From NCBI RefSeq assembly GCF_003096595.1, contig NZ_QEKO01000002.1:435064-499063 (forward strand): 64,000 nt of DNA. The letters are read 5' to 3'. The DNA is from Pusillimonas noertemannii (lineage in GTDB: Bacteria > Pseudomonadota > Gammaproteobacteria > Burkholderiales > Burkholderiaceae_B). Positions 17,359 through 25,302 of this stretch are shown here, one piece after another; within the stretch, counting starts at the first letter, position 1, and each line of letters opens with the position of its first letter. Position numbers and translations under genes: made by a program. The notes under the pieces are model-generated. The model did not search any database and was not told where the DNA came from. It worked only from the letters and a program-made list of their open reading frames with translations.

Positions 17359-17685
17359 TCAGAAAGCATCCACCTTCCACTCATACTCTACCGCCACTTC
17401 TCCGAGTACGCGCAGGCGCGCAAGAGGGTCCATGTCGAGCGCCTGAAGCAGGCGGCTGTTGAAACCTTCAAGCGTGGCCTTGGCGCGATCGGCGAACTCG
17501 GGATCGACCGCCTGGTCTTCGTACTTGATGACGTAGGTTTGCGCGGCAACCCCCACGACGAAGTACAGCCCGGCATTGTCGGGATCGGCTTTCATGAGCT
17601 CGAAAGCCTCCTTGAAGAAGAGCTTGAACGAGTCGCTGCCCGACTCGGAATGCGCAAAGCGCTCGGTGATTTCTTTGAACGTCAT
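17359..17685 (-). CDS. conserved hypothetical protein
   Basis: This 108-residue, acidic, probably cytosolic protein has no signal peptide or membrane segment. The ATG (MTFKEITERF) is preceded by CGGAG ten bases upstream; a TTG seven codons earlier is an alternative. I recognise no domain. The composition (regular amphipathic helices such as DSFKLFFKEAFELMK) and normal codon bias suggest a real folded protein. It lies upstream of pagL on the same strand, 108 bp away, and may be co-transcribed with it. No function is proposed. Confidence 0.65.
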   Translation of the reverse strand: MTFKEITERFAHSESGSDSFKLFFKEAFELMKADPDNAGLYFVVGVAAQTYVIKYEDQAVDPEFADRAKATLEGFNSRLLQALDMDPLARLRVLGEVAVEYEWKVDAF

Positions 17686-17843: not shown

Positions 17844-18743
17844 CTAAAATCCGGCCAGCAACTGGCGAAGGTGCCGGGCGCCCGCCTTGCCCTTGTAGGC
17901 ATGCCGCCACAGCTTCGAGATCATGTTCTCGTACAGCCGCAGCGCCTGAGGCGACTCGGTGACGGTGGCGATGCCGTTGCGCACATTGGGCAGTTCGGCC
18001 AGCCTGAACGGACTGACGGCCAGCGCCTTTCTGCGCCCCATGGTGAACACCTGGAAGGTCGAGGCGGGCATGGTGTCGTCGACCAGCGCAATCTGCACGT
18101 GCAGGGGCTCGCTTTCCATCAACTCGGCCATGTGCTCGACTTCGGCTCGCGCCGCCGCCTGGCGCGCCTTGCGGGTGCGCGCGGGCAGGTCCATGCGGCC
18201 CACCAGGCCGTTGTACAGGAAACGTTCGAGCTCGCGCAGGCCCACCAGGCTGATCAGATGGGGTTTCCGCTGCTCGAATGCTTCTTTGCGCTCGGCGATC
18301 AGGCGTATCAGCTCGTCGACCTCTTTCTGCTTGAGCACGCCGCCTGTTTCGCGCGGCGTGGCCTCGAGCAGCATGGACCGCATGTGCTCCAGGTAATGGT
18401 CGGACGTGAGCAGCAGCGAAACGGGTTCGAAATGCGCAAAAATGCGCTCGGACTTTTGCTCGAGCTGGCGCATCCGCTCGAACAGCCCCATGGCGTTCGA
18501 GTAATACTCGACCTCGACCCCAAGCAGCGATGCCAGCGATGTATCGAGCAGGTGGGCAAGGCGCTCGAGCATTTCGATCTTGACGATCTCGCCCTTTTCC
18601 ATGCGGTAGACCACCGCGCGCGACACGCCCAGGCGCTCGGCCACGTCTTCGGCCTGCAAGCCCGCACCGACACGATAGGCCCTGAGCCGGTTGCCCAGTG
18701 CCGCGTAATCGATGGTCGACTTGAACGTACGCGTGGCGCTCAT
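17844..18743 (-). CDS. XRE-family transcriptional regulator of the orotate operon
   Basis: The 299-residue protein has an N-terminal Cro/C1-type helix-turn-helix near residues 15-65 (GAGLQAEDVAERLGVSRAVVYRMEKGE). A 230-residue C-terminal region of unknown fold follows, too long for a simple repressor and probably effector-binding. It overlaps the stop of the phosphoribosyltransferase gene by 4 bp (ATGA), so it is the last gene of the seven-gene operon and is translationally coupled. By position it should regulate the operon in response to orotate or a pathway intermediate. That is inference; no operator is proven. Confidence 0.82.
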   Translation of the reverse strand: MSATRTFKSTIDYAALGNRLRAYRVGAGLQAEDVAERLGVSRAVVYRMEKGEIVKIEMLERLAHLLDTSLASLLGVEVEYYSNAMGLFERMRQLEQKSERIFAHFEPVSLLLTSDHYLEHMRSMLLEATPRETGGVLKQKEVDELIRLIAERKEAFEQRKPHLISLVGLRELERFLYNGLVGRMDLPARTRKARQAAARAEVEHMAELMESEPLHVQIALVDDTMPASTFQVFTMGRRKALAVSPFRLAELPNVRNGIATVTESPQALRLYENMISKLWRHAYKGKAGARHLRQLLAGF

Positions 18744-19432
18744 CTGGGAGGGCCTGCCTCGGCATATGACGCGCGTCCGCCGCGATCTCGCGACCACGCG
18801 GCCGGGTCGTCGAGGAAATCCGCCAGCTCGTCCAGCACCGGCCCGGAAAAATCGCCGCGCTCGCGCGCGACGGCCAGCACGTCTTTCCAGGTGGCCAGCG
18901 CATGAACCTCGACCCCCAGGGGGACGAGCAACTGATCGGTGGGAAAAGTGCCGTAGTCGAAAACGATGAACAAGTCGCTGACATGCGCGCCGCAGGCGGA
19001 CAGCGCCTGGCAGAAGCGCAGCTTGGACTGCCCCCCCGCCATCATGTCGTCGACCAGCAGCACCTTGGAGCCCGGTTCGAGCACGCCTTCGACCTGGCTC
19101 TGCCCCGCCTGCTTCTTGCGCACGTACTGCATGGGCAGGTTCAGCGCCTCGGCCAGCCAGGCCGCCAGTGCGATGCCGCTGGCTTCGCCGCCAACGACCG
19201 AGGAAATGCCCTTCAGCGCGCCCTTGGCCGCAAGCAGAGCCTGCGCACGCCTGACGATGTCGCGGCGCAGGTCCGGAAAAGAGATGAGGCGGCGGCAGTC
19301 GATATAGACGGGACTGGCCCACCCCGAAGGCAGGCGAAAGGGCTCGTCGGTGCGCGCCGTGACACAGCCTGCATCCAGCAATGCAGCCGCGACGGCTTTC
19401 GAGTCGGGATCGGGCGTGTAGTGCTTGGTCAC
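18740..19432 (-). CDS. orotate phosphoribosyltransferase (second-copy type)
   Basis: The 230-residue cytosolic enzyme starts at GTG behind GGAGACATC. It joins orotate to PRPP to give OMP. The PRPP-binding loop is KVLLVDDMMAGGQSK near residues 125-139, and family features include LPSGWASPVYIDCRRLIS at the N-terminal orotate pocket and VVGGEASGIALAAWLA. It differs from housekeeping PyrE in the loop (DDMMAGGQS rather than the usual EDVxTTGGS) and in a longer C-terminus. In this operon it can salvage imported orotate into the pyrimidine nucleotide pool, or act as an orotate sensor with the overlapping XRE gene. A separate biosynthetic pyrE is expected elsewhere in the genome. Confidence 0.85.
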   Translation of the reverse strand: MTKHYTPDPDSKAVAAALLDAGCVTARTDEPFRLPSGWASPVYIDCRRLISFPDLRRDIVRRAQALLAAKGALKGISSVVGGEASGIALAAWLAEALNLPMQYVRKKQAGQSQVEGVLEPGSKVLLVDDMMAGGQSKLRFCQALSACGAHVSDLFIVFDYGTFPTDQLLVPLGVEVHALATWKDVLAVARERGDFSGPVLDELADFLDDPAAWSRDRGGRASYAEAGPPR

Positions 19433-19475: not shown

Positions 19476-20933
19476 CTAACTGTTTTCGTCTCCCGCCTCG
19501 GGCGGATCAATATGCCGAGCGCGGTTGACCAGCTCGTACACGCGCGGCTGCGTCAGCACCTCGTGGCGCAGGGCGTCATCGAGCTCGGTTTCGGTCATCA
19601 GCCGGCGGCGCAGGATGACGTCCCGCACATTGGTGCCATTGGCATAGGCCTCGGCCGCCACCGCGGTGGCCTCTTCGTACCCGATGAAGGGATTGAGCGC
19701 CGTCACCAGCGAGATCGATCGGTCTAGATTGCTCTTGAGCCGGTCGGGATTGGCCGTGATGCCCTTGACGCACAGGTCGGCGAGCGTGGTGCAGCCATTG
19801 GCAAGATGCTTGAAGCTGCGGAACAGCGCGTTGGCGATAATGGGCTCGAAGGCATTGAGCTGCAGCTGGCCCGCCTCGGCCGCCATGGTAACGGTAAGGT
19901 CATTGCCGATAACCTCGAAGGCGATCTGGTTGACCACTTCGGGGATGACGGGATTGACCTTGCCAGGCATGATGGAAGACCCCGCCTGCATGGGCGGCAG
20001 GTTGATTTCACCAAAACCCGAGCGCGGCCCGCTGGACAGCAGGCGCAAGTCGTTGCAGGTTTTAGAGAGCTTTACGGCAATGCGCTTCAAGATACCCGAC
20101 AACTGCACGAAACCGCCGCAATCCTGGGTGGCCTCGATCAGGTTGGGTGCGGTATGCAGCGACAGCCCGGTAATCTGGTTCAGGGCGGCAAGCGCCTTGC
20201 CCGCGTAATCCGGATGGGCGGTGATGCCCGTGCCGATGGCCGTCGCCCCCAGGTTGATTTCACTGATCAGGCGCTTGGCTTCGTCCAGCCTTGTGATGTC
20301 TTCCTCGAGCATCAGCGCATAGGTGGAAAACTCTTGTCCCAGGGTCATGGGCACCGCGTCCTGCAATTGCGTGCGGCCTATCTTTAGCAGGGGCGAGAAC
20401 TCCAGCGCCTTGGCATGAAACGCCGCGCGCAGATGCTCCATGGCGGCCAGCAGGCTGTCCATGGAAAACAGCGCCGCGATGCGCAGCGCCGTGGGGTAGA
20501 CGTCGTTGGTGCTTTGCGCCATGTTGACGTCTTCGTTGGGATGCAAATGCCTGTACTGGCCGCGTTCATGCCCCAGGAGCTCGAGCGCGCGGTTGCAGAT
20601 GACCTCGTTGGCGTTCATGTTGGTCGACGTGCCCGCGCCGCCCTGGATCACGTCCACGACGAACTGGTCGTGCAGCGATCCGGCGCGGATCTCTTCGCAT
20701 GCCGCAACGATGGCCTCGCATTTTTTTGTGGCCAGCAGGCCAAGCTCGGTATTGGCCTGGGCCGCGGCCTGCTTGACCGAGGCCAATGCCACCACCAGCT
20801 CGGGAAAGATGGAAACCGATGTGCCCGTAATCTGGAAATTCTCGCACGCGCGCAGGGTGTGCACACCATAATAGGCATCGATAGGTACTTCGCGCTCGCC
20901 CAGGAGGTCGCGCTCGATGCGAAACTCGCTCAT
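19476..20933 (-). CDS. aspA: aspartate ammonia-lyase
   Basis: The 485-residue member of the aspartase/fumarase superfamily catalyses L-aspartate -> fumarate + ammonia in the cytosol. The flexible active-site loop GSSIMPGKVNPVIPEVVNQ is present. Its NPVIPEVVNQ tail is the aspartase rather than the fumarase form. The other conserved regions are STNDVYPTA and GRTQLQDAVPMTLGQE. The start follows TGAGGCTTAT, and the carboxylase-like M20 gene ends only 7 bp upstream. In the operon it is the final step, sending the carbon of orotate into the TCA cycle as fumarate and releasing ammonia. Confidence 0.92.
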   Translation of the reverse strand: MSEFRIERDLLGEREVPIDAYYGVHTLRACENFQITGTSVSIFPELVVALASVKQAAAQANTELGLLATKKCEAIVAACEEIRAGSLHDQFVVDVIQGGAGTSTNMNANEVICNRALELLGHERGQYRHLHPNEDVNMAQSTNDVYPTALRIAALFSMDSLLAAMEHLRAAFHAKALEFSPLLKIGRTQLQDAVPMTLGQEFSTYALMLEEDITRLDEAKRLISEINLGATAIGTGITAHPDYAGKALAALNQITGLSLHTAPNLIEATQDCGGFVQLSGILKRIAVKLSKTCNDLRLLSSGPRSGFGEINLPPMQAGSSIMPGKVNPVIPEVVNQIAFEVIGNDLTVTMAAEAGQLQLNAFEPIIANALFRSFKHLANGCTTLADLCVKGITANPDRLKSNLDRSISLVTALNPFIGYEEATAVAAEAYANGTNVRDVILRRRLMTETELDDALRHEVLTQPRVYELVNRARHIDPPEAGDENS

Positions 20934-20940
20934 ATAAGCC

Positions 20941-22197
20941 TCAAGATAATTGGTTCAGGGCGTCGGCCAATACCTGTACGCCCAACATGAAATCTTCGAT
21001 CTCCATTGCTTCGCGAGGGTTATGGGAACCGTTCTGGTTGCGCACGAACAGCATGCCGCTGGGTATGCCGGCGTTGGCAAACAGCGACGCGTCGTGTCCC
21101 GCGCCACTGGGAATCACTTCGTAGGGCACGCCGCGCTGTTCACAAGCTTTGGACAAAATATCGCAGATTTGGGTGTCCATAGTAGCCGGTTCGCTGAATA
21201 CGCGCCTGTCGAATTCGAATTTCACCCCTCTTTCGCGGCTGATCGCCGCACATTCGGCGCGCATCAACTGATAGAAAGCCTCGAGCGTGTCGGTGCTTTT
21301 GCTGCGGGCCTCCAGGCTGAAGCTTACCCGCCCCGGAATGCGTGAAATGGAGTGTTCGGCCGGATCGGTCTGCACGATGCCTGCTGTGACCACGAGATCG
21401 GTGCCGCGCTCGAGCAGCACGCGCCAATGCTCGTCCAGCCGCATGACAAGGTCGGACACCGCGAACATGGCATCGTGGCGCAGCCAGCGGGGCACGACGC
21501 CGGAATGCTGGGCATCGCCCAGGCATTCGATGCGATTGTGGCGGATATTGCCCCGGATGCCCGACACCACCGCCACGGGCAGGCCACGCGCCACCATGAC
21601 AGGTCCCTGCTCGATGTGCAATTCAAGATAGGCAAGAATGTGCCCGAGGTCGACCAGGACCTCTTGTTCACGTATGGCCTGGACGTCGGCGCCGACACGC
21701 TCCATGTATTGCGCCAGCGTATCGCCCGTGCTGCGCTGGGTAAGATCGAGGTCGGCCTGGCCGAGCTTGCCCAGCAGCGCGCTGGAACCCATGTAGGCCT
21801 TGCCGAACCAGGCGCTTTCTTCGCCCCGAAACGCAACCACCCGCAGCGGCGGCCCCTTGCCGCCGCCTTCGCGCTGGCGTGCGATAAGGCACAGCAGGCC
21901 GGCCACCACCCCCGCCAGCCCGTCGTAGTTGCCGCCCTGGGGCACTGAGTCGATGTGGGAACCCACCCAGACCGCCGGCGTATCGGCGGCAAGGTCGGGG
22001 GGGCTGAACAGAATATTGGCGGCCCGGTCGGCCTCGACCGCAAGGCCCTCGGCCTGGGCCAGCCGGGTCAGGTAGTCGCCCGCCGCCGATTCGCCCTGAC
22101 CATAGCTTTCGCGGGTAACGCCCACGCCGTCGAACGACATCTCGCGGACGTCGTTGAAGATTTGCTCGGCCAGTTCGCGATACTGCATGAGATCCAT
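20941..22197 (-). CDS. M20-family N-carbamoyl-amino-acid hydrolase; proposed N-carbamoyl-L-aspartate hydrolase (ureidosuccinase)
   Basis: The 418-residue cytosolic metallohydrolase belongs to the HyuC/beta-ureidopropionase/allantoate amidohydrolase branch of M20. Metal-binding residues are visible in order: His and Asp in VGSHIDSVPQGGNYDG, Glu-Glu in FRGEESAWF, His in LELHIEQGP and His in NGSHNPREA. Its amide substrates are N-carbamoyl compounds, which it splits to amino acid, CO2 and ammonia. Between a dihydroorotate dehydrogenase and an aspartase, the fitting substrate is N-carbamoyl-L-aspartate. The start follows CGGAGAACACG. The family assignment is firm; the specific substrate is inferred from neighbours. 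Confidence 0.85.
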   Translation of the reverse strand: MDLMQYRELAEQIFNDVREMSFDGVGVTRESYGQGESAAGDYLTRLAQAEGLAVEADRAANILFSPPDLAADTPAVWVGSHIDSVPQGGNYDGLAGVVAGLLCLIARQREGGGKGPPLRVVAFRGEESAWFGKAYMGSSALLGKLGQADLDLTQRSTGDTLAQYMERVGADVQAIREQEVLVDLGHILAYLELHIEQGPVMVARGLPVAVVSGIRGNIRHNRIECLGDAQHSGVVPRWLRHDAMFAVSDLVMRLDEHWRVLLERGTDLVVTAGIVQTDPAEHSISRIPGRVSFSLEARSKSTDTLEAFYQLMRAECAAISRERGVKFEFDRRVFSEPATMDTQICDILSKACEQRGVPYEVIPSGAGHDASLFANAGIPSGMLFVRNQNGSHNPREAMEIEDFMLGVQVLADALNQLS

Positions 22198-22216: not shown

Positions 22217-23167
22217 CTAACCCGACTGCTGGGCGAAGCGCAGCCAGCGGTCGGTCAATTGTCGGTCGAGCTTGACCTGGCCGGTGAGCTCGCTGATGCG
22301 CTCGACGCCCATTTCGTCGCAGTAGGCGTGCAGGCCGTCGATGATTTTCTGCATGACCCCCGGGTCGATGAACGAGGCTGTGCCCACCTGCACCGCCGTG
22401 GCACCGGCCAGCATGAACTCGACCGCGTCCTCGGCGCAGCGTATGCCGCCGCAGCCGATGATGGGAATGTGCACGCTGCGATAGCACTGGTGCACCATGC
22501 GCAGCGCAACCGGCTTGATCGCGGGCCCCGACAGGCCGCCCATGACGTTGCCCAGCTTGGGTTTGCGGGTGCGCACGTCGATCGACATGCCCAGCATGGT
22601 GTTGCCCATGACGATGCCGTCGGCGCCGGCCTCTTCGGCCGCCTTGGCCACCACGGCCACATGGGAGGCGTTGGGCGTCAGCTTGGCCCAGAACGGATGG
22701 CTGGTATGGCGCCTTATCGCGCTGACCGCCTTGTAGGTAGTGTCGGGGTCCATGGCAAAGGCCATGCCGTCCGCCTCGAGATTGGGGCAGGAGATATTGG
22801 CTTCGATCACGGCCACCTCGGGCAGCGACATCTCGGCCACGGCCTGCGCAAATTCGTCGACGGTGTCGGCCGAGATGGAAACCACCACGGGCGTGTCGTA
22901 GCGGGTATAGGGCGGCAGCACTTCGCGCCGGTAGTAGTCGAGCCCCTTGCTGGGAATGCCGATGGAATTGAGCATGCCGCTGGGGGTTTCGGCCACGCGC
23001 GGCGTGGGGTTGCCGGCCCGGCTTTTGGGCGACACGCTTTTGATCACCAGCGCCCCCAGATTATTGAAATCGAGCGCCTCGGAGTATTCGATGGCGAAGC
23101 AGCCTGACGCCGGCATGACCGGATTGCGCAGCTTCAGGTCGCCCACCTTGACATTGAGCTTAGCCAA
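22217..23167 (-). CDS. dihydroorotate dehydrogenase, class 1B catalytic subunit (probably running as orotate reductase)
   Basis: The 316-residue FMN enzyme has the class 1 catalytic Cys in EANISCPNLEADG and the FMN-phosphate site IIGCGGI with GATAVQVGTASF. The stretch GGLSGPAIKPVALRMV is characteristic of PyrDB. I place the start at a TTG overlapping the end of the pyrK gene, because GGGGAGG lies 6 bp upstream and the family N-terminus (LNVKVGDLKLRNPV) begins right after. Class 1B enzymes use the PyrK partner and NAD(H). With aspartase and carbamoylase downstream, the direction is likely orotate -> dihydroorotate, as in orotate-fermenting clostridia. Soluble heterotetramer expected. Confidence 0.88.
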   Translation of the reverse strand: MAKLNVKVGDLKLRNPVMPASGCFAIEYSEALDFNNLGALVIKSVSPKSRAGNPTPRVAETPSGMLNSIGIPSKGLDYYRREVLPPYTRYDTPVVVSISADTVDEFAQAVAEMSLPEVAVIEANISCPNLEADGMAFAMDPDTTYKAVSAIRRHTSHPFWAKLTPNASHVAVVAKAAEEAGADGIVMGNTMLGMSIDVRTRKPKLGNVMGGLSGPAIKPVALRMVHQCYRSVHIPIIGCGGIRCAEDAVEFMLAGATAVQVGTASFIDPGVMQKIIDGLHAYCDEMGVERISELTGQVKLDRQLTDRWLRFAQQSG

Positions 23168-24011
23168 ATTCGACCTCCCCGACGACGTCGCGTATAGAGA
23201 AAACCGGCCCTTCGCGACAGACCCGCAGAAACTGCTTGTCGCCCTCGGCGGTGTCGAACAGGCGCACACAGGAAAGACAGACACCCATGCCGCAGGCCAT
23301 GCGCTGTTCCATGGCAACCTGGCCAAGCACGTCGGGATAGTCGGCCAGCACCCGCTGCAACAGCATCAGCAGGCGATGCGAGCCACAGGTATAGACCGCG
23401 TCGTGGCTGTGCTGCTCAAGCTGCCGGCGTACCAGCGCCTCGACCGCGTCGACGTCGGACGAGCCGTCGCTGTCGTAGACACAGTGCACATCGGCCGGGG
23501 CGCCGCGCAGGAACTCGTCGCGCATGAGGTCTTTGGGCGCGCGCGCCGACATGATGGCGGTAACGGCAATGCCCCGGTCCGCCGCCATTTGCACCAGCGG
23601 CGCCATGGTGGCCAGCCCCACGCCCCGCGCCACCACCATAATGCGCTTGAATTCCGGCCCAAGAAAAAAGGTATTGCCCAGCGGGCCGACGATATCCATA
23701 TGGTCGCCCACGGCCAGATCGGAGATGGCCAGGGTGCCCAGTCCCGTAACGTTGTACAGGAACTCCAGGGTCTCGGGCTGCGGGCCCATGCCGTAGACGC
23801 TCATGGGCCTTAGCAGGAAGGGCTGCAGGTCGTCGCTGACGGGGCACTTGAGCTGATAGAACTGGCCCGCCCGCGTCGCCCGGGCCAATGGGCCGGGCGC
23901 GCGCAGGCGAAGATATTTGTAGCGGTCGTTGACCCAACGGTGCTCGGCTACTTCGCAGCGATGAGAGGCGACGCTCTCGGCGTTGCGCTGGAAACCTTCT
24001 GCCTGCGTCAT
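23160..24011 (-). CDS. dihydroorotate dehydrogenase electron-transfer subunit (PyrK-like)
   Basis: The 283-residue flavo-iron-sulfur protein has an FAD-binding motif LLRPMSVYG near residue 68 and a nicotinamide domain with VARGVGLATMAPL. A C-terminal [2Fe-2S] site with four Cys in CGMGVCLSC and RVCREGPVF matches PyrK. It passes electrons between NAD(H) and the FMN of the catalytic subunit. The start follows CAGGAGAGGCGCA, and the stop overlaps the pyrD start by 8 bp, so the pair is translationally coupled. The N-terminal 25 residues are longer than in standard PyrK. Confidence 0.88.
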   Translation of the reverse strand: MTQAEGFQRNAESVASHRCEVAEHRWVNDRYKYLRLRAPGPLARATRAGQFYQLKCPVSDDLQPFLLRPMSVYGMGPQPETLEFLYNVTGLGTLAISDLAVGDHMDIVGPLGNTFFLGPEFKRIMVVARGVGLATMAPLVQMAADRGIAVTAIMSARAPKDLMRDEFLRGAPADVHCVYDSDGSSDVDAVEALVRRQLEQHSHDAVYTCGSHRLLMLLQRVLADYPDVLGQVAMEQRMACGMGVCLSCVRLFDTAEGDKQFLRVCREGPVFSIRDVVGEVEFG

Positions 24012-24060: not shown

Positions 24061-25302
24061 TTACTTCAGCTCCACACCCTTGAGTTCGGGAATGAGGAAT
24101 ATGGTGGCCAGCATGGCCAGGACATAGATGGATGCCAGCAAGGCGATGGCGACGTGGAACGAGTACGCCATGGCCAGCGCGCCGATCACCACGGGGCCGA
24201 AGCCGCCGATGCCGCGGCCGATATTGAACAGCACGTTTTGTGCCGTGGCGCGGGCTTCGGTGGGATAGGCCTCGGAAATAAGGGCCCCGTAGCCGCCCAG
24301 CATGCCGTTGACGAACAGACCCATGAGGGCGCCGGCCCACAGCATGGTAGAGGGATCGGTAAGCTGCGAGTAGTACAGCACCATGACCACGGCGCCAGCC
24401 TGGAACATGATGAAGCTGGGCTTGCGGCCGATGCGGTCGGCAAGCTGTCCGAACACCCAGATGCCGATGGCCATGCCCACGATGGTGACGGATGTCCACA
24501 TGGCCGACTTGGTAAGGGTAAAGCCCAGTTCGGTGGACAAATAGCTGGGCATCCAGATCATGATGCCGAAGTAGCCGAAGTTCTGCACGCCGCACAGGAT
24601 GATGATGCCTATGCTGATCTTGGTGGTGGCGGCGTCTTTGACCAGCAGCCTGAACGAGCGGCCCAGCGAGCCCTTTTCCTTGGCCTTGCGCACGAAGACC
24701 TCGGGCTCGTGCAGGCGGTTGCGGATATACCAGGCGACAAGGGCGGGGATGATGCCCACCAGGAACATGCCGCGCCAGCCGATGTGGGGCAGCAGCAAGG
24801 GCGTGAGCAGCGCCGCGCCCAGCACGCCCGCCTGCCAGCCCAGCGCCACGTACGAAGACACCCGGGCGCGATGCTTGGCCGGCCAGGCCTCGGCGGCCAA
24901 CGCCATGCCGATGCCGAACTCGCCCCCCAGGCCCAGCCCGGCGATGGTGCGGTAGACGAGCAGGTCCCAGTAGCCTTGCGCAAAGGCGCAAAGCCCGGTA
25001 AAGACCGCGAACAGCACGATGGTCCAGGTAAGCACCCGCACGCGCCCGTAGTAGTCGCTGAGCGAGCCGAAGATGATGCCGCCGGCCACGGCGCCCACCA
25101 GGGTCCAGGTAACGAGCGAGCCGGCCTGGCTCGGGGTCAGCATCAGTTCGGCCGAGATGGCCGCCAGCATGAAGCCGAGAATCAGCAGGTCGAAGCCGTC
25201 CATGGCGTAGCCAACGGCCGACCCGGCAAGGGCCTTCCACCCATAGCGGGTGACTTTGTCTTGGTCGACGACATGGGTCGCCGGTTCGGTCTGAGCTTGC
25301 AC
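24061..25302 (-). CDS. MFS transporter, AAHS (aromatic acid:H+ symporter) type; proposed orotate importer
   Basis: The 413-residue inner-membrane carrier has about twelve hydrophobic segments. The AAHS signature MDGFDLLILGFML is in the first helix, GSLSDYYGRVRVL forms the cytoplasmic loop 2-3 motif, and QLADRIGRKPSF its repeat. The family carries aromatic carboxylates with protons. The start is GTG behind ACAGGAGTAGAACC. As the first gene of the operon, its likely cargo is orotate, a planar carboxylated pyrimidine. The cargo is inferred from the enzymes behind it. Confidence 0.85.
   Translation of the reverse strand: MQAQTEPATHVVDQDKVTRYGWKALAGSAVGYAMDGFDLLILGFMLAAISAELMLTPSQAGSLVTWTLVGAVAGGIIFGSLSDYYGRVRVLTWTIVLFAVFTGLCAFAQGYWDLLVYRTIAGLGLGGEFGIGMALAAEAWPAKHRARVSSYVALGWQAGVLGAALLTPLLLPHIGWRGMFLVGIIPALVAWYIRNRLHEPEVFVRKAKEKGSLGRSFRLLVKDAATTKISIGIIILCGVQNFGYFGIMIWMPSYLSTELGFTLTKSAMWTSVTIVGMAIGIWVFGQLADRIGRKPSFIMFQAGAVVMVLYYSQLTDPSTMLWAGALMGLFVNGMLGGYGALISEAYPTEARATAQNVLFNIGRGIGGFGPVVIGALAMAYSFHVAIALLASIYVLAMLATIFLIPELKGVELK

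Follow-up and report, generated by a model that had tools for sequence, protein, structure and literature searches.

Which carbamoyl compound is hydrolysed by the M20-family protein encoded at 20941–22197 on the minus strand of the 64,000-nucleotide stretch of Pusillimonas noertemannii DNA analysed here (the window)? The first-pass annotation had placed a carbamoylase gene at these coordinates, preceded by PyrDK and followed by aspartase, and both points held: the reading frame is open over exactly this interval and intact for 418 amino acids, the plus-strand reading being interrupted by stops; PyrK and a class 1B PyrD precede the gene and aspartase follows it. The physiological substrate predicted from this context is, with high probability, N-carbamoyl-L-aspartate, which would make the gene product a ureidosuccinase (EC 3.5.1.7), since the gene shares an operon with orotate-breakdown enzymes, including the dihydroorotase that makes this substrate, across many bacteria.

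The operon runs along the minus strand in the order MFS transporter, PyrK, PyrD (class 1B), M20 carbamoylase, aspartase, PyrE-like protein, XRE regulator and small protein. Its genes are separated by short gaps or overlap; from the ORF coordinates, 19 bp lie between PyrD and the M20 gene and 7 bp between the latter and AspA, and the PyrK and PyrD genes overlap by 8 bp. No promoter was found when the region ahead of the MFS gene was scanned. This first gene (24061–25302, GTG start) encodes a transporter of the aromatic acid/H+ symport type (PF07690, 208.6 bits; TIGR00895, 353 bits, below the cut-off of 418.6) that is a probable importer of orotate. The PyrK-like electron-transfer subunit (23160–24011), on which PyrK equivalogs score just 102–124 bits, under cut-off, possesses the C-terminal [2Fe-2S] domain (PF10418, DHODB iron-sulfur, 53 bits against a cut-off of 23.9) and its C-x4-C-x2-C...C motif. 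PyrD (22217–23167, TTG start) is a dihydroorotate dehydrogenase scoring 376 bits with NF005574 (cut-off 269), its catalytic Cys present in the sequence NISCPN. The pair thus conforms to class 1B PyrDK, but here it represents a second DHODH beside another one in the genome, placed in a catabolic cluster, and the cluster PyrD probably works, in the direction that we infer, as an NADH-driven orotate reductase. Downstream of the M20 gene follows aspartate ammonia-lyase (19476–20933), for which a fumarase identity was ruled out by a score of 743 bits with NF008909 (cut-off 510) and of 677 bits with the aspA profile TIGR00839, as against 486 with fumC. The series ends with the PyrE-like phosphoribosyltransferase (18740–19432, GTG start), the XRE-type helix-turn-helix regulator (17845–18741) and a conserved 108-residue protein (17359–17685; relatives at 30/76 of the loci described below), which is the last gene of the operon at many loci. 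Neither of the latter two has a Pfam or NCBIfam match; the C-terminal part of the regulator is uncharacterised, and a Klebsiella plasmid gene in the equivalent place is annotated as a helix-turn-helix regulator.

These genes suggest a route in which the MFS protein would import orotate, PyrDK would reduce it with NADH to dihydroorotate, a dihydroorotase would open the ring to yield N-carbamoyl-L-aspartate (the product of this enzyme in the catabolic direction), and the dinuclear-metal M20 enzyme, third in the operon's route, would hydrolyse the latter to L-aspartate, CO2 and NH3, after which aspartase would convert aspartate to fumarate and NH3. What is observed comprises the genes, with their order and its conservation, together with the catalytic residues and the modelled fold; which way PyrDK runs, and what the M20 enzyme and the transporter act on, we infer. 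The window's own cluster is devoid of a dihydroorotase, so that ring opening would fall to the single housekeeping PyrC, of the dimeric type, that the host genome encodes elsewhere, while many relatives would use a dedicated PyrC. Also present in this genome are a canonical PyrE besides the PyrE-like gene of the cluster, and just two DHO_dh-domain proteins, of which the second DHODH reads as class 2 by sequence. The PyrD and PyrE of the cluster are therefore additional to these separate housekeeping versions.

The host genome also bears upon a different view of the M20 protein, namely that it is a β-ureidopropionase or a general L-N-carbamoylase of the reductive uracil/hydantoin pathway that lies beside pyr genes by chance. 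Such enzymes are often broad, and have the superfamily, the carboxylate-binding Arg and the catalytic set in common with it. Nonetheless, neither of the DHO_dh-domain proteins is of the PreA type, the genome was found to contain no dihydropyrimidine dehydrogenase, and no hydantoinase/dihydropyrimidinase scored above cut-off (at best 39 bits against 393), so that the PreA/PreT plus dihydropyrimidinase combination expected of a β-ureidopropionase pathway did not turn up in this genome. These absences weaken the assignment to ureidopropionase, as do the recurrence of the PyrDK association through the clade and the position of a true PreA-linked relative in another clade, and we consider it quite improbable. 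That relative (L127), a paralogue only 29% identical to the window's protein that served as a context control, adjoins a gene for PreA (716 bits, cut-off 335), the dehydrogenase of the uracil pathway. This is the neighbour expected for a ureidopropionase, and context here does track function.

That the neighbours point to N-carbamoyl-L-aspartate had been argued from this one genome, in which the dihydroorotase lies outside the cluster, and it is comparative genomics that fills the gap and supports the argument. Neighbourhoods of up to 10 kb on either side were compared for 76 relatives in other genomes (39–93% identity), genes being assigned by direct similarity and counts referring to loci, with Pandoraea over-represented. 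PyrK and PyrD occur near the M20 gene at 61/76 loci, an MFS gene at 59, a PyrE-like gene at 44, a porin gene at 29, a dihydroorotase at 19 and aspartase at 18. This dihydroorotase is a PyrC of the dimeric type and is full length (TIGR00856, 452 bits, cut-off 293). The M20 enzyme is thus encoded together with enzymes that would supply its substrate and consume its product, a context that supports the assignment without defining it. The deepest branches of the clade (Bradyrhizobium, Tardiphaga, Acetobacteraceae and Rhodospirillales) carry PyrK-PyrD-M20-PyrC, which, on a midpoint-rooted tree, suggests that the ancestor already had this complete set and that loci devoid of PyrDK have been reduced. 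Plasmids carry the set as well. On a Klebsiella pneumoniae plasmid the order is PyrK-PyrD-M20-PyrC-regulator-small protein, the M20 protein being 58% identical to that of the window, and a Variovorax plasmid combines the dihydroorotase set with MFS and PyrE-like genes next to the M20 gene. The Klebsiella module (L134, NZ_CP085732.1) is located near lacYZ, and its PyrK and M20 proteins are annotated as 'hypothetical protein' and 'Zn-hydrolase', respectively. At least 99% identical M20 genes are found on 53 Klebsiella plasmid records, the full context being taken from one of them, and a nucleotide search with the window's M20 gene matched no E. coli genome.

Of 399 genomes sampled from the order, 26 encode a relative at E <= 1e-100, some of these belonging to a more distant group of 43–46% identity, at whose sampled loci the pyr genes searched for were all absent. 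An M20 group of 42–46% identity from another family of the order (L147–L151) has no pyr gene of those searched for in its vicinity. A scan of viral contigs returned only distant M20 relatives (27–43% identity), among them M20 carbamoylase relatives of 41–43% identity on three IMG/VR contigs of 137–188 kb classed as viral (L158–L160).

Membership of the protein in the M20 carbamoylases is clear from its scores with Pfam Peptidase_M20 (82 bits, cut-off 24.6) and with the hydantoinase/carbamoylase family TIGR01879 (281 bits, cut-off 204). Its AlphaFold2 model (pLDDT 92.3) predicts the fold of a catalytic plus a lid/dimerisation domain, and matches over its whole length the structures of L-N-carbamoylase 3n5f, allantoate amidohydrolase 1z2l and 8c46, the N-carbamoyl-β-alanine amidohydrolase RrCbetaAA. 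TM-scores with family structures range over 0.72–0.87, 8c46 being the top listed at 0.87, while identity to these three in the structure alignment is 24–33%; with them the protein shares the fold, bimetal site, Glu base and Gln/His/Arg substrate ligands. When 78 clade members were aligned with 32 other relatives (paralogues) and two solved structures, the metal ligands H81, D92, E127, H194 and H392 and the base E126 proved to be kept in 77–78/78 clade members and 32/32 paralogues, as are Q197, H231 and R298, in agreement with the earlier statement that all metal-ligand motifs are present. R298 corresponds by motif to Arg291 of RrCbetaAA, which binds the substrate carboxylate (PMC10952681), 8c46 itself being outside the alignment, and would be expected to bind the α-carboxylate.

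The presence of all these motifs does not establish specificity, for which arginines peculiar to the clade are the more relevant sign. No ureidosuccinase equivalog appears among the NCBIfam matches of the protein. The best-scoring subfamily is NF006771, 'allantoate amidohydrolase', at 396 bits narrowly under its cut-off of 399, and allantoate amidohydrolase is also the name that automatic annotation would give (PRK09290 families). However, the equivalog for the allantoate deiminase AllC (TIGR03176) reaches 197 bits against a cut-off of 598, the cluster has no purine genes, and the allantoinase-related profiles TIGR00857 and TIGR02033 gave weak matches only, with no sign of AllB by these profiles; for the three amidohydrolases inspected, Xaa-Pro dipeptidase was the best match. 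Allantoate as the substrate is thus exceedingly improbable.

The M20 proteins of the cluster form one clade (SH-aLRT 97), distinct from ErtE and from allantoate-type and ureidopropionase-type relatives, in a tree of 66 rows obtained by a quick search with some long branches and a midpoint root. Compared with known members of TIGR01879, HAGTTPM has become HSGVVPR in the window's protein, NVVPG has become SRIPG, the Arg of EEGxRF is replaced by Trp (EESAWF), and there are extra invariant arginines; against the other relatives in the alignment, S285 replaces a conserved Asn in the clade, and W130 an Arg. Near-invariant R215 (78/78), R237 (78/78) and R124 (77/78) are missing from most other M20 carbamoylases, position 237 being Met in 31/32 paralogues, and R286 is found in 73/78 clade members where other relatives have Val. 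By their positions in the alignment, one or more of R215, R237, R286 and R124 would be candidates for binding the second carboxylate. If the domain limits of RrCbetaAA at 213/331 (PMC10952681) carry over, R215 would lie close to the boundary between catalytic domain and lid.

Another candidate substrate is N-carbamoyl-L-glutamate or a further carbamoyl dicarboxylate. The best-scoring equivalog of the protein is in fact ErtE (NF058540, 283 bits), an N-carbamyl-L-glutamate amidohydrolase and likewise an M20 carbamoylase that acts upon a carbamoyl dicarboxylate. Yet this score is far under the cut-off of 520, ErtE members belong to a separate clade with Met at 237 and without R215 or R286, and the neighbours of the window's gene are pyrimidine and aspartate genes rather than glutamate genes. 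A sister M20 protein, 40% identical, is encoded on a Methylobacterium plasmid (L136, 5977–7233) adjoining the 5-oxoprolinase genes pxpABC, and perhaps serves a carbamoyl-glutamate or hydantoin-propionate route. It too has R237 and R124, with Lys at 286, which lends the glutamate alternative some substance; because these two arginines are common to the orotate clade and to a sister beside 5-oxoprolinase genes, they may be a general mark of dicarboxylate recognition, whereas R215 and R286 are specific to the orotate clade. Overall, carbamoyl-glutamate or another such dicarboxylate is very unlikely to be the substrate.

The PyrE-like protein scores 73 bits with the orotate phosphoribosyltransferase profile TIGR00336, below the cut-off of 106.8, and its catalytic loop is altered, the sequence VRKKQAGQSQVEG being devoid of the Lys and His residues of the canonical RKEAKDHG loop. 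The loop His is missing in 46/46 readable PyrE-like sequences and the second Lys in most, while the PRPP-type acidic motif is retained. It is possible that the protein is a sensor of orotate/PRPP, or a weak or changed enzyme. The gene accompanies M20 even at loci without PyrDK, and these loci count against a role in orotate catabolism: the Comamonas loci, a freshwater-type group (L066, L068–L070, L083, L139–L144) and L023 keep the M20 gene but have no PyrDK at the locus, the PyrE-like gene being retained in most cases and forming a two-gene pair with M20 in the freshwater-type group. Where whole genomes of this PyrDK-less group were searched no close PyrD was found, with the sole exception of a 45% match in the genome of L073. 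Such genomes, the hardest fact for the orotate-catabolism reading, may use external dihydroorotate or carbamoyl-aspartate, or may drain the biosynthetic pool.

The last of these options can be extended to the family as a whole, whereby hydrolysis of N-carbamoyl-L-aspartate would chiefly serve to drain or balance the biosynthetic pool and not to support growth on orotate, which, together with PRPP, would be sensed by the PyrE-like protein and the XRE regulator. This overlaps with the ureidosuccinase assignment, ascribing another role to hydrolysis of the same substrate, and the persistence of the PyrE-like/M20 pair at loci devoid of PyrDK or of the transporter speaks in its favour. Against it, M20 is accompanied at most loci by a transporter and an NADH-linked reductase, often with a porin gene as well, and the deepest branches harbour the complete catabolic set, making a primarily homeostatic role unlikely. 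With regard to ureidosuccinase in orotate catabolism, it should also be considered that aspartase is found at just 18 of the loci, that the window's own cluster has no dihydroorotase, and that the substrate range of M20 carbamoylases is often wide, so that preference in vitro could differ. 

The breakdown of orotate via dihydroorotate and ureidosuccinate to aspartate was reportedly worked out in the 1950s in Clostridium (Zymobacterium) oroticum. The reaction and pathway proposed here would be the same as in this orotate-fermenting organism, but the genes are found in beta- and alphaproteobacteria as well as on Klebsiella plasmids, and in some cases aspartase then follows. To our knowledge few if any sequences are linked to EC 3.5.1.7, and none to the enzyme of the Clostridium; a search of the open-access literature found no paper naming a gene for ureidosuccinase or orotate catabolism. 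A more ambitious proposal, which we regard as tentative and rather doubtful in its entirety, is that the clade is the first ureidosuccinase sequence family and the signature of an orotate-catabolic operon, widespread and carried on plasmids, that is under the control of a PyrE-derived phosphoribosyltransferase lacking the canonical loop residues and acting with the XRE regulator as an orotate/PRPP sensor. If the ureidosuccinase assignment is true, a gene would be assigned to a classical enzyme activity, and the list of genes that bacteria need to grow on orotate would be complete. Many database entries named 'Zn-dependent hydrolase' or 'allantoate amidohydrolase' would then be corrected, and the module found on Klebsiella plasmids would be explained. 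The M20 clade would, moreover, offer a test case for how the specificity of M20 carbamoylases shifts towards dicarboxylates.
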